From positions 4,383,501 through 4,447,500 of the forward strand of contig OW285192.1 of assembly GCA_935421135.1 (NCBI GenBank): DNA of 64,000 bases. The letters run 5' to 3'. Source of the stretch: Bugulina stolonifera. Taxonomy: Eukaryota; Bryozoa; Gymnolaemata; Cheilostomatida; Bugulidae. Positions 16,195-46,029 of this stretch are shown here, in pieces. Both the position numbers and the translations under genes were made by a program. Each line of letters opens with the position of its first letter. Position 1 is the stretch's first letter. The notes under the pieces were generated by a model that worked only from the letters and a program-made list of their open reading frames with translations, ran no database searches and had not been told where the DNA came from.

Positions 16195-19100
16195 TTACAC
16201 AAAATTTGCTACACCGTAGCGATTGGTGTGTGGGGCAAGGTACACTCTAGACCCATAGCCTTGTGATTTGCGACGGTGACTTTTTCTGAAAGCATTTTTC
16301 TTCATAGAACTAAATCTATCTTTAACAGACTCCACGACAGACACTGGAAGGCGTTCTGTCTCTCTGTGTAGTACATACTGACAGAAACACATACCCTGTC
16401 AACAAAAACAAATACCCTGTCAACAAATACAAATACCCTGTCAACAAATACAAATACCCTATCAACAAATACAAATACCCTGTCAACAAATACACATACC
16501 CTGTCAACAAATACATATACCCTATCAAGAGGATGCGCATACCTGATCAACTTTGTAGATAGCTGATAATATTTCCAAAAGAAAAATGCAAACTATTGCA
16601 AGAACGCGCTCTGTATTCACCCAAAAACCTCACCAATACTCAATAGCTTCCAAAGACCCTAATGATATCTCAAATAAGTTGATAATACTGTGTATATTAT
16701 TACACAAGATCTCTTACCTTCTGACGGTGGTCCTTCTCCTCTACATATGGCAGTTTGTTTCTAGTGAGAGCTTCAAAATAATCCCATTCAAACTTTTTAG
16801 TGAGCGTATTTACACGTTTCTAAAATAAACAGACGGCAGTAGAAAGTAGGTCACTGTACATGTACACATACTGTAGAAAGTAGGTCACTGTACATGTACA
16901 CATACTGAAAGAAGTAGGTCACTGTACATGTACATATACTGTAAGAGGTAGGTCACTGAACATGTACACATACTGTAGAAAGTAAGTTGTTGTACATGCA
17001 CTTAGTAACCTAACTGTACTTAGTGGTAACTGTTTTAAATATTTTCATATACGGAATATTGTACGTAAATAATTATGTGGATACACTATACTGTATATTA
17101 CTGCTGTTATGCTGCAGGTACATGTACATTGTTTTTAGTGCTCATTACGTATTGTGCAGAACTGCGACAGCTAAGCGTCATAACATAAAAAAACTGCCAA
17201 TCTTACCATTATCTTATCTAGTTTGAGGGTGGTGCTCTCCCCGTTTCCTAGAAAACTTGATTTACTGGAAGCAGACCCGTTTATTCTCGTCATGGTGTCA
17301 TGTACATGACAATATAGTGTTTGCTGTAACATAGTAGAGTAGGTTGTTAACCTGACAGATAACAGACTTGACACACACCTGACACTCACCTGACACCTAT
17401 CTCACACACCTGACACCTATCTCACACACCTGACACTTATCTCACACACCTGACACCTATCTCACACACCTGACACCTACCTCACTCACCTGACACCTAT
17501 TTCACACACCTGACACCTATTTCACACACCTGACACCTACCTCACACACCTGACACTTATCTCACACACCTGACACCTATCTCACACACCTGACACCTAT
17601 CTCACTCACCTGACACCTATTTCACACATCTGACACCTATTTCCCACACCTGACACCTATCTCACACACCTGGCACTCACCTGACATAACTCAAAGTTGT
17701 AGTATATAAAGTATAGGTGGATCTTAGCCGAACATGACCAGTACGCTCTCTGACAGTGCAGAACTAAGTTGGTTTCCCTGAACTTTTTATTTAATTCTTC
17801 TACTTTAATTCTATATTTCAAATATTTCTAAAATAAAGAGTAAACCATTTTATGGATCTCACATTATACAGTGCAGATCAGTTGAAAACTATTACGAATA
17901 TGGTCAACAGTAAACAGTAATAATGTCTGCTGGACGCTGCAAGAGAATGACATGTCATCAGTATACAATGCATTAGTCTTCAATCACAATCAGCACAGAA
18001 AACTAGATTCTAGAGAGAATCTGCTCGCTACATGACTGCTGTCACTATATGGCTGCTGTCGCTACATGCCTGCTATCACTATATGGCTGCTGTCGCTATA
18101 TGCCTGCTATCACTATATTGCTGCTGTCACTATATGACTGCTGTCACTATATGGCTGCTGTCGCTACATGACTACTGTAGACAGTGCCTGAGAGACATTA
18201 CTAATGCTTGCCAATTATTGGTCATTCTTGAAGCATATTAGGAGAGGTTGTCTGCTCTTACTAAGGTAGAATATTATGAATCTACAGTGAGTTATACAGG
18301 ATTCCAAGCCTTGATTACTAACTGCTTACGTGGAGCAAGTGTAAGACAACTCACATAGTTAACTAGATGCACCAGAACAGCCACCATAACTGCAGCAACT
18401 GCTGCCGGAATGAAGAATATTAAGATGATAAAGCTCCAAAATATGCTGCCTGAGATGTTCTCGTCTTCTGCTTGGTGGTGTTGTAGTGCTCCTGCAGGTA
18501 AAACATGACAATTGTTAATATCATCAACTGTTTATCTCTCCTGATGTTAGTCAGCAAAAATTGAACACATTGAAGTAAAAGAAAATGATGAAAAGCAGTC
18601 TGCATTCGACTGCAGATTTGAGGAGTTTTCGCCTGGAAATTTGAACATCTTGGAATTTCAAATAATGCTTTTGGTCAAAAGAAACTTTAATAGATTTCAC
18701 CCACTCCCCTACCTATACTAACATCGATTGATTTGCATCCATAAAGCAGGGTAATTGTGAAAGTTTCAATCTATCATTTGCTGTAAACTACTTAGCATGA
18801 AACGTGCTCATACTAAATTTATTCGCTCTGAGAAATGTTGAGCTCCAAAAGCAAACTCAATTTAGTAGCAATCAAAGTAGCTGTGGAGGTTGTTGTTGTC
18901 GTTGTTTACTACTATTCTACAGTTAGGTACTGAAAATGGTTACTTTTTCTTTAATAGCAATAGGTAAGTATTTCTATGACTCGGATCTACTGACCTACTA
19001 CGAGAAACCAGAGAGAGATGGTAATGGCTGCAGTCACCACCATTGTAGTGAGCAGAAGACAAGGAAGTGAGCACTCTACAGATTTCTGGAAGAATGTAAC

Positions 19101-22100
19101 TCTGGAAGCCTCAGTCAGGCTCACCAGAATCTCCTCAAACTCTGAATCAGTCACCTGAAAAGAGGAGAGAGAGAAATGAACGACATTAATTTACAATATT
19201 TATGCTATGTTAACGTAAGCATCAGAAAGGAAATACATGTACATATCAGTTTATAAAGTTCAAACATGTATTGAAAAAAAGGTGGAACGCACCTGTAACC
19301 CCCGTTTTGTGAGAGCCGATGGAGCGCGGTGCTGAGGATCAGGTCTAGGGCATAATATATTACTCTGGGGACAGTAGGTAGCCCAGAATCCCATTTCTTC
19401 ATCAGAAGGAATTTCATACTTTGTGTATTTGCAAGCTGTGACTCTCTTGATAACAGCACCATTTGGATAGTCTGTAGATAGAGATAAACATACACCATGT
19501 TTAGTTATGTACTCAGATTGCTATACATGGTCTCCTATGTCGCCAATATGACGTGAGTAAGTAACTCATGAAACACTATCGTCACCGAAAGTGATGGGGT
19601 TGAATAAATCCCGTCATTAGGTGTATACCAAGCATACTAGAGACGAGTAGCCCGGGTTCCACATCCTCTGAAAGATGAGTGAAATTGTTTGCTATAGCCT
19701 ATATTCATAGCCTAAGTTCCATGGGCAATACCCCAAACATTTGGCAGGTTATCCACACAGGAAACTTATTGTACACATCTACATCACTATAACAGCCGTA
19801 AGATGTAATTGCATATGCATTACTAATCTGCTGCAGCCAATGGCTACAGAAGGAGGTAATGAGCGAATAATCTCACGCATGTGTCTAGCATGATGTCTAG
19901 CATGATGTCTAGTCGTCTTCAACTTACTGGTTGGTTCTTTAACAGTTACTGAATGCTGGTCTGTTGCTGAGTTGTGATTGGTCACGTCTGTTTTGATGCT
20001 AGGAGATACAGTTCTACTATTGGAGTTTTCAATGGGTGGAGCTGATGGTTTGAGAGACTCATCTTCTTTGGTCGGCATAGCTAGAATGGTAAACAATCAT
20101 CATGGGTATCTGCGTTGCATGCCGACACAATGACAACAATCAGAACACAATGCCATGGATTGAAACTGGAATTCATAACCACAATTAATATGGTTAAAAA
20201 ATTTTATTAATATTTAAGCATATTCAAAATATAATTTCCAATAATTGAGCATAATTAATAATTACATTACTCAGCACATTACATGATTCATCACAACCTA
20301 TGACTCATTATTTCACATGATATAATGCATTGTTACTTCACTCCTATCATCACATGACATGACACGTGACATGACTTGTAATTTCACATGACACATTACA
20401 TGAATCATCACATCGCATGAGTCATTGCATCAAATGACTCATCACTATGTGGCTCATCATCACATGACTCGCCGCATTACATGACTCATATAAAATGACT
20501 CATCATCGCATGACTCACTGCATCATATTATTCATCATCACATGACTAATCACTGAACAAGACCGATTAGATAAACCAACCTGAAGAAAGGAGCCTTGTG
20601 AGTCTCTCAATACAGCCGTGGTCCGTGACGTAGAATATTTTGGGTAGTTTGAGCAGACTAGCAGGCAGCTCCACATCAGGCAACACAAGGAGCACAAGTT
20701 TATTCTTCTTTTCCTCCTGTGAATAAAAAGCAGCATACATATAAATACACACTGCAAATGTATTACATACATGTATATGTATATGGATGTATAATATGTA
20801 CACTCAATGCATCATCATCATCATTGTGGTATTAACTCCAAATGGCATAACTATCATCTCTGATTGGACATCGGCATAGTTCTACAAACAGTAACTCCAG
20901 CAACAGCCCAAAAACACATAAATACGCTTAAAACAACAAAATACATATTTTATTTGTTTATTCATTGTAACAACAACAACATGAGTAGTGAACGTCAAAT
21001 TATGCAAAAATTAAGAGTCATTTCCACCTACCTCTGGTAATGCACTATAAGCTATAGTCTCAAACTGTGGGAGATCATTTTCTACAAACTCCTGACTGCA
21101 TAGAAGGACCGTTCTTTGAGCTAGAGCTAAGGCTAGCATCAAATTCTGAGTGTGAGAGAGATCTGATTTAAAATCTCTTTCGTTAGTCATGACCTTGAGG
21201 TCATGAGGACTACAAACCAACAGAAAGTAAGTTAACATCGCTTGGCCAATAGGAAGTAAGGTAACATTTCCTGCTGATTAATTAGAGATAATAGCCTACA
21301 ATCTACATTTAATTGATTCTATTCATACTTGTTTAACATAACAACATGTAGAATGTATTATACTGTAACTTAGCCTAATTATAATTACACCTACACGTAC
21401 ATCTGCATTGAGCTACATCGTACAATGTAGAGAATAATATGTCTGATCATGTTATTACTTATTAGTAATTAGAGATATTCTCTTGGAATACACAAAAGAT
21501 ATGCAGAGAAGTTTGTAAAGTGGGAGATTTCGGATAGCAAATGAGATGTATACGTTGTGTTACTGCACCCTCCACATTGTACTTGTATGTTATGTATTCG
21601 AAATGCACGGTTTTATTGCAAGTTATGTACCAATCAAATAGTGCTGTCTGTATGACTGAGTCAGATAAATGTTATGTACATGTACATACTCAGGTATGTG
21701 TATATGCAAATATAATCACATGCCTGGGTAATACATGTACATGTATGTAGGCCTACATATTATACATTGTACATGTATATTTTATAAATTTCTATATACA
21801 TGTACATATACGTACATATTATACATGTATGTATGTATGTATGTACATGTATATTGGTGAGTATGCAGTGCGCTTACACTTTAAATTTGGCTGGCATTGC
21901 CTGATGGGAAGAGAAAAGAGAGAGCATAACTCCCTTGACTACAGGGTGTAACAATGATCATAAGAAGATAATATGTAAAGAATGCGACTACAATGGAATT
22001 GTAATAACATTATTCTACATCGCTAGTGGTTATGCAGCAGCCTCCAGGTCTTCTAACTGCCACAAGAAGAACAGCAAGCAAATTCAGCATTCACATATTA

Positions 22101-25100
22101 TGCTGTATAATTCACACAAGGATTACTAACGGGTTCAACGATTCAAACCATGAAATGTCTGTAAATTGCTCCAAATTTTACCATTTACTAGTTTTTCGCT
22201 CTGCTCTGCCCCCATACTACACCTTTATGCATGTGATTTGTGTAGCTAATCAAGTTATTTTGTGTTTTGGAAAATAAACGTTAATATAAGGCAAAGATAG
22301 TGGAGGGAAAGACATGCAACTCAGCCTCAAAAATGTCCCTCAAACGCCGACAAAAGTTTAACCAATCACGTTAGCTAAAACTTAAAATCCCCCATTTATT
22401 AGTCAACCAATCAGAATTATGTCCTCAGAAAGTACAATGCCTATACTCTTCTTGCTCACACTCACTGTTCATTGGTTCAATGGTTGGTGTTCGGAGTCAG
22501 AGAGACAAAGAGTTACATTAAGTAGCACATCTTTCTTTCCATCATCATTGGGTACAGTATATTATAATATTATATCGACAACTTTCTAAGCCCATCCAGT
22601 GGACCTATTATAGCACTGGAGGGAGGAGTTTAATGCAGCAAACAGACGGAACTATCGGCAACATTAAGAGCCAATGAGAGTAGAGCACATAAGACGATAT
22701 ACGTAAGGCAATGACGTAAGGCAATGACGTAAGGCAATGACTTGAGCACGTGCACCAACCGCAGCCAATCACCACGCATCACATCGTACATATCTACAAG
22801 TTACGCTAGGAGTATAAATAAGAATGGAAGCCAGCTACAAACACAAGACACTGTAGCGGATAGCGAATGACAATCAAAGAAATTGAATTACGTATAAAGA
22901 TAAGCGGGGATGAAACAAGAACAGCTGGGTTTATCATGGAGAAAATGTAAGCTTTACAATGGACGGTTTGGACAAATAATAGCAAATTGATTACGTATCT
23001 ACCTGTCCATGATACTAGATTTAGAGAACAAAGCAATACAGTGTATTATCTTGGGAAATATGGAGTCATAGCAACAGGACATGTGACCTACATAAAGGTA
23101 AGTATACATTCCTATAGCATGAGGTCCTACAATGCATTTACATGTACTAATAACATACATTGGGTGGTGTTTGCAACTCTACGCAACATTGGTGAGTACA
23201 GTACAGGACTTTCAGTAACTATTCTGGGAGTTGCCTTGCCTTGGGCAGCTAAAACTAGTCAGGGGAGGTAATTCTACTATGGAGAGAGAAGCATAGGCCT
23301 AGTTCAAATTATTGGAGGGCATTGCTAATGGATTCATCCTGCATTGCAGATTAGTAAGTCATAGCTAGGAGTTGTCCTATCTTATGTATTAGTAAGTGAC
23401 ATGCATGTAGGAGTAATCTTCTCTCGTGTAGCATACTTGGGAGTTATGTTATTATATCTCGTAGGCTCACCTGTTTTCCAGTTGAGAGACGTAATGCTCC
23501 ACCTGGTCTTGATCCTCTGCGTTGGAAGAATGGTAGATGAAGACGTGGCAATGATCTTCAGACTTGAGAGGGGGCGGACCATCGGCCAGGTGTGCGTCAT
23601 CTTCCTCGTGACAACCAGCTGACATGTTGTCTTCAGAGTCACTTCCTGTGAAGTTATATCAATGGAGTTAATAGGAAACATTCCGAGAACATAAAATTTT
23701 GAAGCAAAATAAGTGAACTCTTCCGAGTAGCATCTGACACTATAGTGGAACGCGCAGTAAGCATATCCGTACCAAAAATGTAACACAAATGTGAAACTAA
23801 ACATACCAACATATATTTTATGTGTACGAGAGCAAACCATACTGTAAACTGAAGACACTGACAACATTAAGCTATTTGTACAGACGTGGACAACCCAACA
23901 GCTAAACCTACGCAATGTGAGATAATATTATTCTAGCTGGACAAAGACAAGGTTCAAACTAGGAAGTTACACATGGAGCTCAGTATCACTTTTAATACTC
24001 TTGAGAGTGTCCTAACGAACTTATCGAGGGAGATAACTTATAATATGTATCAATTTCTGGACTAACATTAAGTAGACCTAATAAGAAAAAAATAACATAA
24101 TTGAGGAATCTGACTACGCTTTAGTTGTATGGTACTAAGGCTACAGAGATTTCATCTAGTCGACCTAATCACCTAATTTTGATAAATAATACGGAATAAC
24201 TAACATGCACATGTATGGTGCTCATGTACATTGTAGGCCTGCATTGTACATGTAAATGTACCAGATTGCGAATTTTTTACACTAGTAAGAGTAGGTGAGT
24301 TAATAGACATCGGGTACAACATGTAGGGGTACAATAAGTAGTTAGTAGCAACGCCAATAATAGCTAGTGACGAGCATCTAGTAGGCTATTTTACTACCAT
24401 TATCGGTTGGACTATTGGCCTCTGAGGCAGTCACATTGCCCTGTAGACATATATCCCCACCGTCTGCATAATAGTCTATATCAATAAACACACAGAGATA
24501 AGCTGTTGAGAGAATATTATGGAATACTAATGGTGACATTGGAACAGGAGTTGTCTGCTCTGCTCTGGTAAGCAATCCACTATATTATTACTAGAGGTTC
24601 AATATAAAAATGTTGGAAAAATGAAAAGTATTAGTTAGATTGGGATAAAAACTACAACACCACTTCGGTTAACAATCTAATTTTCCATAATATCATATAC
24701 ATTTGAAATATAGTATGTTGCGTTTAGAGGTGTTATTCCATTGATAAGAACGTATTTAAATATTTAAATAACTAAGCTATGCAGTGTTAAAGCAGAAATG
24801 ATACGTGTACAGTTAAGTAATTTACCGATCACATCCAATATATCGTCACTGACTGTATAGGGAAGACAAATAAGGGATATGATACAATAATTTCAAAAGT
24901 AATTATGTGCATAGAACATCGGCATCGCAGTATTAAAATAAACAATATCAACAATGAGCCTGTTTTAAATGCAAGGTAACCAATCTATTTATACTAAAAT
25001 GTAGTAGACATGCATGTGTTTTGTGTGCCGTACAGTGTGAATGATTGAAGTTCACATGAGTACAAGTATAACATGAGGGAGAATCTACAATATCTAGTGC

Positions 25101-27412
25101 CATGGAAATATACACGTAGCACAAGAAGCCAGGTTGATATACATTGAGAAATAAAGGAGGAAGGACGTGCACTACCACGTTACAAAGAAAGAAATAGTGT
25201 ACACATCACCATGACGACGATGTAGGGCCACAGGCATTTTGTATTCCCAAGCACATTGGTTGAAATACAAAAAAGTAAAACGTTTGTACTTTAGGCTAAG
25301 TTATAAAGCAACAGTTTCAGTATAGATACAATCTCTCGCATGTAACTCTCACAAGGACATTTGAGAGCTACGATACTCATGTAATGTTCCGGAAGCATCC
25401 CTTGGCATGCTAAATAGTTTATCTTGATGGTCACGTTTTAGTGATACACATCATGGCTAAGGACATACTGCGGGGAGGGGGGGGGGGAGGGTCATCTTGT
25501 AACTAAGTGGATGTAGAAAAAGAATAGCTATGATGAAACTGGTCTGATATTAGCCTAGTTTCTTGAGAAAAGAGGTAAAGGTGCGGGAAAGAGAGTCTTA
25601 CAGCCACTATACAGTTGTTAGTTCACTCGCAGAACTACAACTATAATAGATTAGAGTACTAATACACATATCAATTACTATAGGCACCTGAGCTGTCGTC
25701 AGAAACCCCTGATTCTAACGATGATTGTGATGAGCCTGGAAAACGGAGCATGATTAAAGCTGACATGTATATGCCAGGAGAATCCAAAAAAAAATATATC
25801 ACTGTATTACTAAAATATGAGATCCTAAGAAATTAATATGCAGTGGAAATTCTGTAATTTTATAGAAAAAAAAAAACAGTACAGTCGGAGCATCTTCTCT
25901 CTCATAAGTGAGTAAAAGAAAAAGGATGGATGATGGATGCGATGTTATATGTTCACATGTCACATTGATGCAGAGACGTGAGTGAATTAATAAAATGAGT
26001 TTGCAAGTCCGACAACATATTGACTTCACTCAAAATATATTGGATTGTGTTATGGTAATCGCAATACTGGTTCTTAGATGTGATCTTGAATATGATTACG
26101 ATCATTCAGATAGTTGATCGCAATTTAGAGTTAATTTGAAGATGACAATGATTTGAAGATGATAATGATTTGAAGATAATAATGATTGAAGATGATAATG
26201 ATTTGAAGATGATAATGATTTGAAGATGATAATGATTTGAAGATGATAATGATTTGAGGATGATACAAGTCAATGTATGAAAGTTGGATTCTATGATGAA
26301 AGTTTCATCAGTGTCTAAGTAGACTATAATGCTGCTTACCTAATTTTAGAATTTCAAATAATCAGTATTTTAGCTTTTTAACCAAAAAAACACAGATAAA
26401 GAAGGTTAAAAATATAAGTGTTATAATTAACATAATGTATGATATGTAGCTTATAATTACTAATAGGTAAGCTAAGGCATGTATTGTACGTAATTATTGT
26501 AAATACCATAATGTTATGTATGTACATGCTCATGGATATTTGCAAAGTATATTTACATTTACAGTGTATGTACATGTACATGTGTGAGCAAGCCAACTAT
26601 TACAGTGTGTGTAAGTAGTAAGTAAGTATGCCATGTACATGTAAGTATAGTTAATACATTCACATCAGTGTACATACACGTACATATTTCAGAAGTGCAT
26701 CATTCATTTTAAAAGCTTAAGTAGATTATAAAGATCAGATTTGTTTGTACGTAATAGACAAGACACGCAGCCTAAATAGTATATACTGGTTTATACACGA
26801 GTTTTCAATCCAAGCATCTCTAACCTTCAAAATATTTTATGTCCACTTTGATGGAAAACCATTTGCTAGAAATGGATCAATAGATACGTCAGCAGGAGAA
26901 ACATTGATAGAGGTCATCTAAAGAAATCACATTACTAAGTAAATATTCTACCTGCGCCGCTACCTGTGTGCTAATCCCCAGGGTAATGTGGTCCTGGGGC
27001 AGCTGACAGTATATCTACTACTTACACTGTACCTTCATGTAAATGTCTAGCATAACATTGTAAATGGTAATTAGGGTATTAAACTTTTCACAAATATTTG
27101 TAAATAATAATGTACAATATAATTTATTATTATTATTAGACGTGATAATTAGTCTACAAATAAATATAACACACATGTACATATAGCAATAATATAATTA
27201 TATTATAATCAAGGTTCACATTCATTACCATCCAACACGTAGCTGTATGTATCTCGTAGCTCTATATCATCTAGATGTCTATGCATATAGAACGTGCTCC
27301 TACATGCCGTAGCTTTGTTCAAAGGCGGGTGGGCATGCTGTTTTGCTGCACCACCCCCACTCGCTTTGTTTGTTTTCTTGGCACCACTACCGGTCCCCAC
27401 ATGTTTACCCAT
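16195..27412 (-). CDS. TIR-domain protein fused to a TMEM268-like two-pass membrane region (13 exons)
   Basis: Exons 27412-27229, 25735-25688, 23645-23471, 21209-21032, 20716-20581, 20080-19928, 19471-19293, 19154-18995, 18491-18355, 17827-17681, 17323-17207, 16819-16718, 16377-16195. All twelve junctions agree in phase: 1899 nt, 632 residues plus stop. Residues 1-61 are Gly/Lys-rich and 62-108 Ser/Asp-rich. Residues ~109-240 form a TIR domain: box 1 HVFIYHSS, then ERDFKSDLSHTQN, strand RTVLLCSQEFVEND, LPQFE (where enzymatic TIRs carry a catalytic Glu), then KLVLLVLPDVELP and KIFYV. After a Ser/Pro linker (241-291) comes a region resembling TMEM268: NGAVIKRV, LTKRGLQVTDSEFEEIL, membrane spans ~381-403 and ~421-446, KYRIKVEELNKKF, LYFIYYNFELC and a basic C-terminus. 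TIR and membrane phase are seen; TMEM268 kinship is from memory of the family layout. Likely role: membrane-anchored TIR signalling or NAD cleavage, inferred. Two adjacent genes wrongly joined is the alternative. Confidence 0.75.
16390..16535. repeat. 21-bp minisatellite (TACCCTGTCAACAAATACAAA)
   Basis: Seven to eight copies with few changes. It directly abuts the splice acceptor of the last exon of the TIR gene (exon starts 16377), so the upstream part of that intron end is made of this repeat. Confidence 0.9.
16843..16985. repeat. 34-36-bp repeat, 4 copies
   Basis: Unit contains AGTAGGTCACTGTACATGTACA. Lies in the intron between exons 11 and 12 of the TIR gene. Confidence 0.85.
17364..17690. 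repeat. 20-bp minisatellite built on a splice-donor sequence
   Basis: About fifteen copies of CTCACACACCTGACACCTAT. On the minus strand each unit reads GTGTCAGGTGTGTGAG or TCAGGTGAG, like the true donor TGTCAG|GTGAGT that ends exon 10 at 17681. The array is in the intron directly downstream of that exon. Confidence 0.9.
18030..18180. repeat. 17-bp minisatellite
   Basis: About nine copies of a unit like GGCTGCTGTCACTATAT. Intronic in the TIR gene (exon 9 to 10). Confidence 0.85.
20330..20560. repeat. Degenerate CATGACTCAT repeat
   Basis: Many irregular copies of CACATGACTCATCA-type words, in the intron between exons 5 and 6 of the TIR gene. TGACTCA is also the AP-1 site core, but the repetition alone explains it. 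Confidence 0.7.
22671..22820 (+). promoter_or_regulatory. Promoter-like cluster: CRE/ATF repeats, E-box, CCAAT, TATA
   Basis: On the plus strand: CCAAT (22671-22675), three 13-bp repeats ACGTAAGGCAATG (22701-22739) that create TGACGTAA at 22712-22719 and 22725-22732, an E-box CACGTG (22747-22752), CCAAT (22765-22769) and TATAAATA (22813-22820). Spacing and order fit a Pol II promoter for the small gene at 22867. It sits inside an intron of the TIR gene, on the opposite strand. The factor names are inferred from motif cores. Confidence 0.6.
22867..23097 (+). CDS. Start of a small unrecognised gene nested in the TIR gene intron
   Basis: Exon 1 is 22867-22946 (starts MTIKEIELRIKISGDE, donor AT|GTAAGC, phase 2). 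Exon 2 is 23025-23097 (EQSNTVYYLGKYGVIATGHV..., donor AAG|GTAAGT, phase 0). Together they give about 51 residues in one frame, about 50 bases below the TATA box. No convincing third exon was found, so the gene is incomplete as read. The alternating charged and hydrophobic pattern suggests a small folded domain; I recognise no family. It could be a lost or non-coding transcript. Confidence 0.4.
26137..26262. repeat. 17-bp minisatellite (GATTTGAAGATGATAAT)
   Basis: Seven to eight copies, in the first intron of the TIR gene. Confidence 0.9.
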
Positions 27413-32300: not shown

Positions 32301-35300
32301 TTTTTCATTTTCAAGCAGCCTACATTTTCAGAATACTAGTTTTTATAGAGATCTGTGTGGGGATGAAGTCTAAAGGAAAACTCACCACCCATGATCTCTG
32401 CCATGTCAAGCTCATTCAACATGGCCTCATCAGCGGAGAAGGGATCCTCATCCAACATGTCCTCATCATACATGAGCCCATCACTCATGGCTGCCCCAGC
32501 AAGCCCTGCATGTAGGTACCTCCTCCTCATGTGGTAGTGGTCCATACGACGCCCGGATCGAACGCCGCCAGACCGCGTCCCCTACAAAAACATCAAATTC
32601 ATAAAGCTAAAGCTAATTGTAGAGAGAAAACGTGTTTTGCATTCACACAATAACATACTGTAAAATAATATACATGGTTGTAGGCCTACATGTAACATAC
32701 TATTTCATTAACAAGTCATTGCATAATATCCATACATTAGGAGTTATGTACACATACATATACACACTGTTAGGTGTTATACTTTATATGTAAGGATATA
32801 ATGCATGCAGAAAGTAGCTATGTAGAATAGAAAGCATTGTACCACTTGTAATACAGCGTATACCACTTGTAATACAGCGTATACCACTTGTAATACAGCA
32901 TATACCACTTGTAATACAGCGTATACCACTTGTAATACAGCGTATACCACTTGTAATACAGCGTATACCACTTGTAATACAGCGTATACCACTTGTAATA
33001 CAGCGTATACCACTTGTAATACAGCGTATACCACTTGTAATACAGCGTATACCACTTGTAATACAGCGTATACCACTTGTAATACAGCGTATACCACTTG
33101 TAATACAGCGTATACCACTTGTAATACAGCATATACCACTTGTAATACAGCGTATACCACTTGTAATACAGCGTATACCACTTGTAATACAGCGTATACC
33201 ACTTGTAATACAGCGTATACCACTTGTAATACAGCGTATACCACTTGTAATACAGCGTATACCACTTGTAATACAGCGTATACCACTTGTAATACAGCGT
33301 ATACCACTTGTAATACAGCGTATACCACTTGTAATACAGCATATACCACTTGTAATACAGCGTATACCACTTGTAATACAGCGTATACCACTTGTAATAC
33401 AGTATATACAACTTGTAATACAGCGTATACCACTTGTAATACAATGTGTACCACTTGTAATACAGCGTATACCACTTGTAATACAGCGTATACCACTTGT
33501 AATACAATGTGTACCACTTGTAATACAGCGTATACCACTTGTAATACAGCATATACCACTTGTAATACAGCGTATACCACTTGTAATACAGCGTATACCA
33601 CTTGTAATACAGCATATACCACTTGTAATACAGCATATACCACTTGTAATACAGTCATGTATTACACAGGTATAACACATAGGCCTGGAAATGTAAATAC
33701 TAACCCAAGTAATGTAAGGTATATAAATCTGTAAGATATTTTATAATAACACACATGAAGACACACAGAGTAATAGCAGAACCTATTGCTACTTATGAAA
33801 ACAATGACTCAAACCTACATACTCGTGATTGTGTTTGGGAAATTTTGTACTGTTTAAATTTAAATTTTACACACATAAAAAGAATAATGCTGTTCAGGGT
33901 CGAACTACATGTATATTACAGAATAGGGCGAAAAGACATCAGTGTGTCTCTTGTATAGTGGATATAGAAACATAGAAAGCGTTCCTCATGATACATGTGT
34001 GAGCATGGGTTCCAACCCGCCATCTCGTACAGGTGTGAGGGTGGGTTCCAACCCTCCCTCTCTTAAAGTTCTACAGTACATGTACTTTGACCCATGGATA
34101 TATTCGTTGCTCACTTACATACAGGTAGATTATTACGTTCATATAATGCAGCAGACGCTCTCAGCCAAGTCACAATCTCATTTATCTGGAGCTAATAATA
34201 GACTTATCTCTTTCATGAAACTGAATATCGATAAAAGAAAGTATAAGAAATAATCCATCAATTTCATCTTATTTTTTAATTACAACTTCAAAGTTATACG
34301 TTTAAGCTGACTACTTAAAGTCGATACGTAATGTATAATTTATTTCATTAGAACATTGACCTCTTAAGCTAAATTATCTACGTCTGATATTCTCACAGCT
34401 CAATCTTTGATAGCGATCAAAGTGTTTTTACTGGTAGGCCCATACAATTTACAGATGTCCGTGTATATGTACATGTATAATAGCCTACACTGTTTTATAG
34501 TATATGGTCATATTTCATATTTATATGAATATGCTATAAAATCAATAGACGCATGACACAAGAGTTGTGGGCACATGTAGGCTTCATGATTGTGTACTAT
34601 TTAAGTGGAAGAGTAGAGTTATCTTCTCAACCTACACAATGATGAAATCTCCCCCCCCCCCCGCCTAGGCCCACCTTTGTAACGTTTGACACAGAGGCTA
34701 AATATTATAGCACATAATACATAAACATTGTCATGCCATAATATTATCTACATTGCTACACACATTTAGCCGCTGCCTACGTTGTGTGTCCATAGACACC
34801 AGATAGCTAGACAACTATTTAAACACAAATACCATGACACTCTGCATTTATTGAGTAGGTAGCATGTAGGCCTAACACTCTCTGAATTTTTAAAATATGC
34901 ATGAAAATGCTCTATGCACTAGACTACAAGAATCAAATAGGTGTGGGTTGTAACTGTTATTGAATTATCCAATGTTTCATTAGAGTAAGCACTTGAGGTC
35001 TGCAGTATATGCACTCAGAATACAGAGAGAGAAAGAAGGTGCCGGATGCAAATAAAAGCTAGACTTCTAGAATGAAAACTGAAAAGTTAGTAGACATGTA
35101 TACTATTTACTGCTATTGAATAGTACAGTAGTTATTATACAGTTAGAAACTGGAATATAATTATATAACATAGCAACCGCACCTTCAAGTACATAGTTGC
35201 TATAACCAAATCAAGCTAAGTTAATTAAAGTAAACGAAAAAATAAAATCAGTTTCAAATAAGGGACAGAAACAACAGAAATCAGTAAACAAAGGAATTTA

Positions 35301-41300: not shown

Positions 41301-44300
41301 CCCCAGTCCCAACAGAAAGTACTGTCCTATACTTACTTCTCTGCCATTTCTCTTTGCTTTGAGACTCTCGTTGTAAATAGAGTCCAACAGCTCCTCTGCT
41401 TCCTGCCTGTTCAGTGCAATGTTGGGTTTAGTTGAAGGACGTCTGTTCCGAGCAAAGTAACGATAGTGACGCCATTGGGCCCGGCTACCAGTCGTGTATC
41501 TAACAGGAAATCGTCTACCCATTTCAATAAGCTGTGTATTCTGTTCCAGTTGTTCACAAACACTACACCCTCTATGTAGGGTTCCTTCCTTGATCTCCGA
41601 GAAATGGAGTTAAAAGGTGGTAGTTGTTACCGAGATTTGGTCGTAGAGACGTCCATGCATGCTACTGCGTAGTTGAGTCGAATAAATGTGTAATATGCTG
41701 CACTCTGTGTATACTTTAGACAAGCATACGAATCGCTGTTGTACACATGATTAGCTTTGAAATTCCAGTAAATGCTGCACCTCAGCTGTCAATTAGGCGA
41801 AATCAGCATGGCCTATGGCAGCATAGTCATATCTATATGTGTATATATACATTGTTTACAGCGGTACGTAGTGCGTAATGTTGTATATAATTGCTGCCCC
41901 TAGTAACGTCAGTCCAATTGAATATAAATACATACCCGCCATTTTGTCTGGGAGATCCCATGTTTGACTTTATAGTTTACACTAATTAAATTACGTAAAG
42001 GCTTGCTTATATTTACCTATTAGATACAACAAGGCAATAGCTAATAAGATTATGAGTAACTAATTACGCTACATAGTATAATAACACCACAAAAGCTACA
42101 AAGGTTACCGAGTAACAATGCTCTCTATTATTATGTTTTTTGCGTGAATATAAATTTATCGAACATCTCATGCGATGTATACGATGTATGTTTTGATGAA
42201 GATCAACTTCAAGATTTTATGTTTAGTGAATTGTACATAATGTAATGTCTATATGGAGTCAGTATTTAGTACAACACAGATCTTATAGTAGCTACTGGAC
42301 ATTGTAATGTTACATATCATTCTAATCAATAGCGAAGAGTTGATGGCACTGAGAAAGCAATTCCCAGTTATTAAATTATTCACTCATGATAATAATATAC
42401 TATTATTAATATTGTATTGTTCTATTACATGTAGTATTATTAAAGAGGCCTATATAATTTTATATCTGACTTACTCATCTACACAGAACTGCAAAATAAA
42501 AAACAATTGATCAGATGCAATCAACATCTCAGATTATATTATAGGGTGTGATTGATAGTCGTAGCTAATAAGCTGCATATGCGGAGTTGTCCCCTCTCTT
42601 CCAGAGCTCATGGAGCACAGATTAACAAATCACAATACTCATTGAAGTTTACACTTTTTATGAACATCAATGGATATAATTGAGCTGTGGAAATTATATG
42701 AGCAAGCACAAAAAGAAGACAACTTCAGCCTTATAACTAGGAACTGAAGAGTGACTAGCATACAGTACTTGCATGAGTGGGAACTAATATTTAACCTATT
42801 ATTACAAATAATAATAATAATTAAATAATGGTGTACATTACTCCTAAATCTCTGCAAGTACAAAGTATTAGGTTTTAGAAATTATTAGGTGCTCCTCGAG
42901 ATGTTGGTTTCAGCATATATAGTGATCTACACTACTCAATATTTTACCATCAAATGAATATTATTTTCACCAAAAGCAAAAAAACTGAATAATTATAGAC
43001 TAATAATAAAAGTAGCCTGTGAATAGTATGTGATATATAACAACTGAACTTGAGTGAGTAGGTGCTGAGTCTAAATAGCTGAGTATTTACCCTTTTAGTA
43101 TGGTGTTCGCCCATCACTATTGAGGGACGGACTACTGGGGTCACATCCCATATAAACCCAAATGGTGAGTGCTGAATTAAACAGTAAAGTAATATATAGG
43201 CGTGATATATGACTGTATAATACCACAGTTTGGGGGAGGGAAGGAGAGAATGACAGCAATATAATCACTGTTATGCATTTTTTCAATGAAAGCCTGGATG
43301 CCGGTAGTTTGGAGTCACATTTTGATATTGTTTGTTGATAAATAATGGGTGCAGAAAGAGGGCAGCTATGAAGTTATTTCTTTCCATAGGCACCTATTTC
43401 GTGATAATCGAGGTCCTAACATTATGGTGCATGTAGTTACTGATACAAACATATGTGGAATTGTCTGCACATGTTGTCACACAGCTACTGATAGATACTT
43501 AAAGTTCCATGGGTTAGTAACTCCACCCCTTCATGCATCTTTATTTATATACATGTACAATGTGTACTGTCTGTTTATTTATCTCACACTTTCCTAAACT
43601 GTTATGTCGGGAGTAGGCTTTCCAGGTAAACTTTCTATTTCAAAAACTTAATAGTCTAAATATAGCCACTAGAGGGCGTTAGTATAACACAATAATATAG
43701 GATATTACCACTAGAAGGCTTTAGTTTTGCATAATCAATTAGTACTCACAGTAGGCTTTGTCCCTTTGTGTTTAGAGGAAGTTCGGCCATGTTTATTTCT
43801 TTGATGATGAGCTCTTCGGGTGGCACCATGCCTTCGTCTGCCTGACATCCCCTTCTACAAATATTCAATGTCACAAGTTGGCTTTCGAAGGTCACAAATA
43901 ATAGGCTAAAAGTTAAATACAATGAAATATTTAAGATGGCTTCATGGCCCACGTTTGACACAGTTAAACTCAATAAATTTAATCTCTGGCAAGAATTTTC
44001 CGACTCCTATTCAGTACAGATGAAGGGAACGAGTTACACTGTACCAAAGCTCTAGGGACGGATTCCTTTAGCTAACAGAAATCGCAGGTAGTTTGCACTT
44101 TCAGCCAAGGCAAACAAGCCATAGTGGCACTAAGATTTCCGGATTAAGTTGGTCACAAAGATACATGTACCTATGAATACGTACACACATAACTTTTATA
44201 AACATTTACATGCTACAGGTGAGTGAAAGAATCTTTAAAAAAGAACAAGAATTCCACCCAGTCTTTTAGCGATTATTAACAGCAATCTATTTGCCACAAA

Positions 44301-44522
44301 AATATATTATTGATTGGTACAATAACTAATATCACACGCAAGTCAGAGTGCGAGCACCTCGTACATGCACCCTGGAGAACTTACAGATTTGCTCCGGGCT
44401 CCATAATTTTTTGTTTTAGACGACTTAGTACCAGAAGCCCTATTTTTCTTGGCACGTCTAAGCCTAACACCGTGGCGTACCATCGTAACAGAGCAATGTA
44501 TGTAGTTGAATGATACGACAAA
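29389..44522 (-). CDS. Arg/Lys/His-rich protein built from many small phase-0 exons (core, 10 exons)
   Basis: Exons 44522-44385, 43854-43750, 41531-41337, 40016-39798, 38424-38353, 36378-36223, 35829-35803, 32581-32386, 30145-30108, 29532-29389. The first eight enter in phase 0, and all junctions agree, giving 429 residues with an open N-terminus. The peptide is strongly basic: RRAKKNRASG, SGRRRHGATRRAHH, an uninterrupted run of seven Arg in the fourth exon, RRGFRARRRPRD. It then becomes acidic and Met-rich (MYDEDMLDEDPFSADEAM) and ends with a hydrophobic stretch (KYSIIIPLDELF). Nuclear, nucleic-acid-binding or mineral-associated roles are all possible; I recognise no family. The last two exons rest on phase and splice signals alone. 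Several separate genes sharing this region is the alternative. Confidence 0.55.
31141..31205. repeat. 10-bp repeat (GGTACCACTA)
   Basis: Six copies alternating GGTACCACTA and GGTACCACCA, intronic in the basic-protein gene. Confidence 0.85.
31776..31997. repeat. 16-18-bp minisatellite (ACTTGACAGTGTATAC)
   Basis: About fourteen copies with length variants (GTGTATAC or GTGTGTATAC). An open minus-strand reading of CQVYTLSSIH-type repeats is a by-product. Confidence 0.9.
32841..33654. repeat. 21-bp minisatellite, ~39 copies
   Basis: Unit ACCACTTGTAATACAGCGTAT, nearly perfect. Most differences fall in one spot (GCGTATA, GCATATA or ATGTGTA). It lies in the intron between 35803 and 32581 of the basic-protein gene. 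As 21 is a multiple of three and the unit lacks minus-strand stops, all three minus frames stay open for about 800 bases. These are not genes. Confidence 0.95.
33735..35790. other. Intronic, no feature recognised
   Basis: AT-rich sequence with a run of 14 C at about 34651 and no supported exon. Confidence 0.4.
38453..38530. repeat. ~28-bp repeat (AACAATTAGTTAAAGGGACAGTG)
   Basis: Three to four good copies followed by decayed ones to about 38640, just upstream (minus sense) of the exon at 38424-38353. Confidence 0.8.
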
Positions 44523-45935: not shown

Positions 45936-46029
45936 CTGTGCCATTGATCTAGCTTTATTCCTACATTTGGATTTGAATACATTTTTTCTAAACGCTGCTC
46001 TACTTCTAATAGGCATACTAATAAAGAGA
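45936..46029 (-). CDS. Candidate basic exon
   Basis: Good acceptor (CCCCCTTCCAG) and donor (CAG|GTGAGT). One frame gives MPIRSRAAFRKNVFKSKCRN, like the other basic exons. Its entry phase (2) does not match the phase-0 chain, so it may be an alternative or spurious exon. Confidence 0.3.

Follow-up and report, generated by a model that had tools for sequence, protein, structure and literature searches.

The TIR adaptors TRAM, TIRAP and MyD88 are positioned through lipidation or by binding lipids, or come with a death domain. TIR domains joined to other modules are known as well, oyster TIR-STING being an example given in the accessible part of one report (PMC10732462). Human TMEM268 (C9orf91), 342 amino acids (aa) long by its residue numbers, is described in the accessible part of its report with two transmembrane domains and DUF4481 only, the spans being predicted at residues 104-126 and 130-152, and it binds ITGB4 (PMC6748091). 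Here we describe a locus in a 64,000-nucleotide stretch of the Bugulina stolonifera genome (contig OW285192.1, positions 4,383,501 to 4,447,500; hereafter the window) that very probably holds a single bryozoan gene for a protein with an N-terminus that turns from basic to acidic, a TIR domain, a linker of low conservation and a two-pass TMEM268 (DUF4481) module. We put the probability that this TIR-TMEM268 fusion gene is real at roughly 96%.

With human TMEM268 the bryozoan protein shares a pair of closely spaced hydrophobic spans together with the flanking blocks, but it adds an N-terminal region, the TIR domain and the linker in front, and the Pfam profile finds no match over its last third. 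In contrast to TRAM/TIRAP-type adaptors and MyD88, its anchor is a two-pass protein. Among solved structures, Toll-like receptors (TLRs) have the most similar TIR sequences (TLR2, E 1.4e-5 in a profile search), yet the bryozoan protein has two spans rather than one and carries its TIR domain N-terminal of them; with regard to a leucine-rich ectodomain, no leucine-rich-repeat family was found among the Pfam matches of the window protein and its relatives. In oyster TIR-STING (6wt6, 6wt7) the partner is STING, which is unrelated to the second module here. Compared with SARM1, the bryozoan TIR sequence is nearer to TLRs, the catalytic glutamate is missing from one relative (P0006, below), and neither SAM nor ARM families occur among the Pfam matches of the window protein and its relatives. 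The combination appears to be undescribed in the literature, a search that covered few subscription papers, and is thus no proof, having returned no paper that names both TMEM268 and TIR. In databases it is already visible, as P0001 bears both Pfam labels.

A search of 5.8 billion proteins, in which the 7995 candidates with most shared words were scored, gave five hits, and one further relative came from a profile search with the membrane half (n = 6 in total):

P0001: Bugula neritina EB796_016842, 660 aa, both halves
P0002: source jgi, 558 aa, longest contig 2168 bases, both halves
P0003: Watersipora subatra, 995 aa, both halves
P0004: Watersipora subatra, 698 aa, both halves; paralog of P0003
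P0005: B. neritina model, 389 aa, stops after the TIR domain, without the TMEM268 region
P0006: source lgn, 636 aa on 5428 bases, both halves; most divergent relative

By alignment, TIR-like and TMEM268-like halves lie within one protein in five of the six, bearing out the central claim of an earlier note on this DNA, namely that one protein carries a TIR domain and, after it, a TMEM268-like two-pass region. We took the deposited proteins P0001, P0003 and P0004 as gene predictions. P0002 (558 codons) reads across the TIR-TMEM268 junction and is probably a spliced transcript (cDNA), because its 2168 bases are too short for introns of window size, which total ~5.8 kb over the matching stretch as calculated from the exon coordinates. 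P0006 (636 codons) crosses the junction too, as weaker evidence, its 5428 bases leaving room for small introns. The 659-aa window model is 78% identical to P0001 (residues 1-659 to 1-660), 69% to P0002 (window residues 99-659), 67% to P0003 and 51% to P0004. Resolved by part, identity to P0001 amounts to 89% in the TIR domain, 81% in the TMEM268-like part, 83% in the C-tail and 51% in the linker; for the TIR and TMEM268 parts, identity ranges from 69 to 89% against P0001-P0003 and from 56 to 64% against P0004, and for the TIR domain alone the values are 55% for P0004 and 40% for P0006. Judged from these alignments, both halves are constrained, and the match of the TIR and TMEM268 parts to the relatives is far in excess of chance. 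A protein search with the TIR region returned three of the known fusions and nothing further, and NCBIfam yielded nothing relevant on three relatives; the protein search relies on shared short words and covers the spread of the fusion for the proteins found.

In a small, unrooted TIR tree, P0004 (W. subatra) pairs with P0005 (B. neritina) with a support of 0.92, apart from P0001, P0003 and the window protein; P0006 sits on a long branch beside this pair, and P0002 falls between both groups. The topology suggests a gene duplication before the B. neritina and W. subatra lineages split, and after the fusion since P0004 retains both halves. The two species belong to different superfamilies of Flustrina, so that the fusion dates back at least to their split.

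The homology-backed gene runs on the minus strand from 43848 to 16195 (window positions) in 13 exons, with a 659-residue frame free of internal stops:

43750-43848, minus strand: exon 1, MSGRRRHG...KPT, basic, counted from the ATG; donor gtgagt; tblastn 73% to P0001, 80% to P0003
32386-32581, minus strand: exon 2, GTRSGG, then RRMDHYHMRRRYLHAG, an acidic part and IMG; phase 0 in, phase 1 out; tblastn 75% to P0001, 65% to P0003, with P0004 and P0005 matching too
23471-23645, minus strand: acidic stretch followed by the TIR domain's first strand (HVFIYHSS); tblastn
21032-21209, minus strand: TIR core, including the BB-loop region (NERDFKSDL) and the counterpart of the catalytic glutamate (codon 21061-21059); Pfam, tblastn
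20581-20716, minus strand: C-terminal part of the TIR domain; Pfam, tblastn
19928-20080, minus strand: linker between TIR and membrane part, PSAPP at 20048-20034; tblastn
19293-19471, minus strand: start of the TMEM268-like region (YPNGAVIKRVT ... LTKRGLQ); Pfam, tblastn
18995-19154, minus strand: TMEM268-like region, hydrophobic stretch 1; Pfam, tblastn, hydropathy
18355-18491, minus strand: short loop and hydrophobic stretch 2; Pfam, tblastn, hydropathy
17681-17827, minus strand: basic post-span region, LYFIYYNFELCQ block; Pfam, tblastn
17207-17323, minus strand: QTLYCHVHD block; tblastn
16718-16819, minus strand: KRVNTLTKKFEWDYF block; tblastn
16195-16395, minus strand: last exon with stop codon, GMCFCQYVLH ... 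FV and stop; tblastn

From 23645 down to 16195 the exons splice at GT/AG sites, with phases that agree, into a single open frame, as had been proposed, but the 632 residues given in the earlier note for its 13 exons could not be reproduced; rebuilding with phase-compatible upstream exons picked by eye resulted in 15 exons and 673 aa. The two exons far 5' of the interval proposed there (43848-43750 and 32581-32386) were detected by tblastn of relatives against the window, and both splice in phase onto the exon at 23645. Four relatives spanning the N-terminus were used (P0001, P0003, P0004, P0005): all four match 32581-32386, and 43848-43750 is matched clearly by P0001 and P0003 and weakly by P0004 and P0005.

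Pfam TIR_2 was found at residues 147-253 of the 673-aa frame with 28.2 bits, barely above the cut-off of 28, and with 32.7 bits in the piece alone. Taken singly, the relatives remain below this cut-off (P0001, 26.7; P0002, 19.6; P0003, 21.3; P0005, 18.1; none for P0004 and P0006), and their TIR halves were recognised by alignment to the window TIR domain. As both Pfam scores (TIR_2 and DUF4481) are modest, the relatives are required for the case. The fold of the TIR half is predicted with confidence (predicted local distance difference test, pLDDT, 86), and its top structural matches are MyD88, TLR2, TRAM and oyster TIR-STING, with SARM1 at rank 43 among the best 50 structural matches listed, a rank from which we draw no conclusion. 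TLR TIR domains are likewise the best sequence matches among solved structures; SARM1 is not in these lists, and the SIGIRR TIR domain is a weak profile-search match (E 0.06). The DFK of the BB region is among the invariant TIR residues; the proline and glycine of the BB loop are replaced. The column of the catalytic glutamate holds Glu in six of the seven proteins and Cys in P0006, and TLR2 has Glu there too. By sequence and predicted structure, the domain is of the animal TLR/MyD88 signalling type.

For the membrane half, Pfam DUF4481 (PF14800, TMEM268 family) matches residues 379-546 of the 673-aa frame with 27.1 bits (cut-off 25), spanning profile positions 28-182 of 293 only. The cut-off is exceeded in five of the seven proteins (besides the window, P0001 with 26.4, P0003 with 25.2, P0004 with 29.1 and P0006 with 28.1 bits); P0002 reaches 22.3 bits and P0005 is without the region. 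The likeness to TMEM268 seen in the earlier note thus holds for this part of the profile, but not for the distal helices, whose match is not supported. According to hydropathy, the 659-aa model has one hydrophobic stretch at ~402-427 and another at ~440-468, with ~10-16 residues between them, the second being followed by a strongly basic stretch; the predicted structure of this half is poor (mean pLDDT 39, four sequences). The short loop and the basic stretch suggest, by the positive-inside rule, that both protein ends are cytosolic, which would place the TIR domain on the inner face of the membrane. In the linker, a P(S/T)APP motif is present in five of six proteins (window, P0002, P0003, P0004, P0006), versus 0.05-0.4% of trials with shuffled linkers, the occurrences not being independent as the linkers are related to one another. 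TSG101 recognises the motif P(T/S)AP, according to the accessible text of one report (PMC8232796). By this motif the linker is a putative ligand of the endosomal sorting complex required for transport I (ESCRT-I; TSG101); the P0001 linker lacks P(S/T)APP.

As to function, we tentatively favour, at slightly less than even odds, a non-enzymatic, membrane-tethered TIR adaptor mechanism. The TMEM268 module, whose mammalian counterpart binds integrin tails and delays their breakdown, would position the protein at a surface or endosomal receptor, the TIR domain would recruit or nucleate MyD88-type TIR assemblies at the cytosolic face of the membrane, and the linker motif might couple the protein to ESCRT-I for sorting. 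TMEM268 binds CD11b and slows its degradation along the endosome-lysosome route, and Tmem268 loss in mice weakens bacterial clearance, as stated in the accessible part of the respective report (PMC11169502). These integrin data, combined with the TIR evidence, are the reason for favouring an adaptor that acts near receptors in the endosomal system. The innate immune role as receptor or adaptor raised in the earlier note is plausible but unproven on sequence grounds, an adaptor being likelier because the few residues between the hydrophobic stretches leave no room for a ligand-binding ectodomain. Protein fusions can point to functional partners, and this one links the poorly understood TMEM268 to TLR-type signalling; for mammals, the prediction would be that TMEM268 acts near TIR-containing receptors or adaptors. 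Further-reaching, and rather unlikely, is a new innate immune hub in which the TIR domain, the TMEM268 integrin-trafficking module and the ESCRT-I motif unite endosomal receptor sorting and TIR signalling; if true, TMEM268, recently tied to mouse phagocyte defence, would have an ancient link to TLR-type signalling. In the accessible part of a survey, TLRs numbered none in a B. neritina transcriptome and six in Membranipora, with TLR-like proteins noted in these groups (PMC8609888). In view of these counts, other TIR carriers could matter in bryozoan immunity, on which the fusion protein may bear.

Many immune receptors evolve fast, whereas this gene is kept at high identity, in keeping with a structural or trafficking protein whose TIR fold would be a plain protein-binding module outside immunity. 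The ties of TMEM268 to integrin stability and adhesion, reported in the accessible parts of two papers (PMC6748091, PMC11169502), point in the same direction, but the invariant DFK of the BB region suggests retained TIR contacts, and we consider this explanation unlikely. The substituted BB-loop proline and glycine, the missing ectodomain and the weak SIGIRR match would all suit a decoy or inhibitory TIR domain that restrains MyD88-type signalling at membranes in the manner of SIGIRR; the TLR2 match (1.4e-5) is far stronger, however, and activator and inhibitor are not separable by sequence alone, so that the inhibitory role, too, has the odds clearly against it. A membrane-tethered, NAD (nicotinamide adenine dinucleotide)-cleaving TIR domain acting as a SARM1-like executioner, an activity the earlier note had entertained, is not supported and seems quite improbable, given the Cys of the most divergent relative P0006 at the catalytic-glutamate column and sequence matches among solved structures that are headed by TLR TIR domains and do not list SARM1.

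Certain features weigh against a single gene: exons 20581 and 20080 are just 500 bases apart, read-through past the TIR donor ends at a stop four codons on, the intron between both halves has an AATAAA at 20208, and the B. neritina model P0005 terminates after the TIR domain. That two neighbouring genes, TIR and TMEM268, were falsely merged by the first annotation and by gene predictors is nevertheless rejected as highly improbable, since both halves occur together in five of six relatives, P0002 passes through the junction on a contig without room for window-size introns, P0006 crosses likewise, and P0004 of W. subatra, the partner of P0005 in the TIR tree, is a full fusion. Of the separate transcripts with a restart at the ATG at 20078 that the earlier note had considered, the end after the TIR domain finds a parallel in P0005, but P0002 and P0006 run through the junction in relatives. 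Alongside the fusion, a TIR-only isoform may exist, in view of the P0005 end and the intronic AATAAA.

At the 5' end, an acceptor (TTGTAG) lies six bases 5' of the exon 1 ATG, its TAG ending at 43855. Exon 1 may therefore start at 43854 with an earlier 5' exon upstream, as the acceptor lies close to the ATG and P0003-P0005 extend N-terminally beyond that point; a search for a basic first exon 5' of 43854 led only to a weak candidate that ends at 44385 and to another, weaker still, at 45936. P0003 has a long serine-rich N-terminal extension (residues 1-334), which may reflect an additional 5' exon or a merged gene model, and its first 345 residues, searched in the window, gave nothing convincing before residue 335. 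The exons proposed earlier at 27412-24398 drew no tblastn match from P0001, P0003, P0004 or P0005 and were rejected as main first exons, the four relatives matching 32581-32386 and 43848-43750 instead. The outermost of them is:

27229-27412, minus strand: first exon of the earlier proposal (E1), coding-like but matched by none of the tested relatives; may be an alternative first exon or due to chance

The codon-use score per codon is 0.162 for E1, 0.145 for E4 and 0.110 for E2; three of the four earlier-proposed 5' pieces exceed the 90th percentile of 80 control segments (0.076) and E1 also the 95th (0.157), by a measure that is weak, the 13 supported exons themselves spanning -0.167 to 0.210. 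On this count the earlier-proposed exons are not plainly non-coding, and E1 may represent an alternative first exon.

Shortly upstream of exon 2, at 32840-33654, a 21-base unit is repeated in tandem ~39 times (96% matches), and this repeat accounts for the long open frames that overlap there on the two strands. At 16387-18178, four introns at the 3' end each contain a different minisatellite (units of 21, 34, 20 and 17/34 bases), the first array overlapping the last exon by a few bases. Of the 81 listed open frames of the window, 20 were searched with Pfam and gave no match above cut-off, and Rfam gave no match in the window. Related peptides (AKAKEHGG, GHVGTLGTHAV), which surfaced as chance matches, are encoded on the minus strand at 2000-1845 and 9469-9317 and suggest a duplicated small gene or repeat. 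A PF01582 profile search of the same genome produced 13 matches, the window TIR domain not being among them; six TIR exon matches lie on one strand within ~54 kb of contig C5 (9596148-9649684), suggestive of a tandem cluster of TIR genes.
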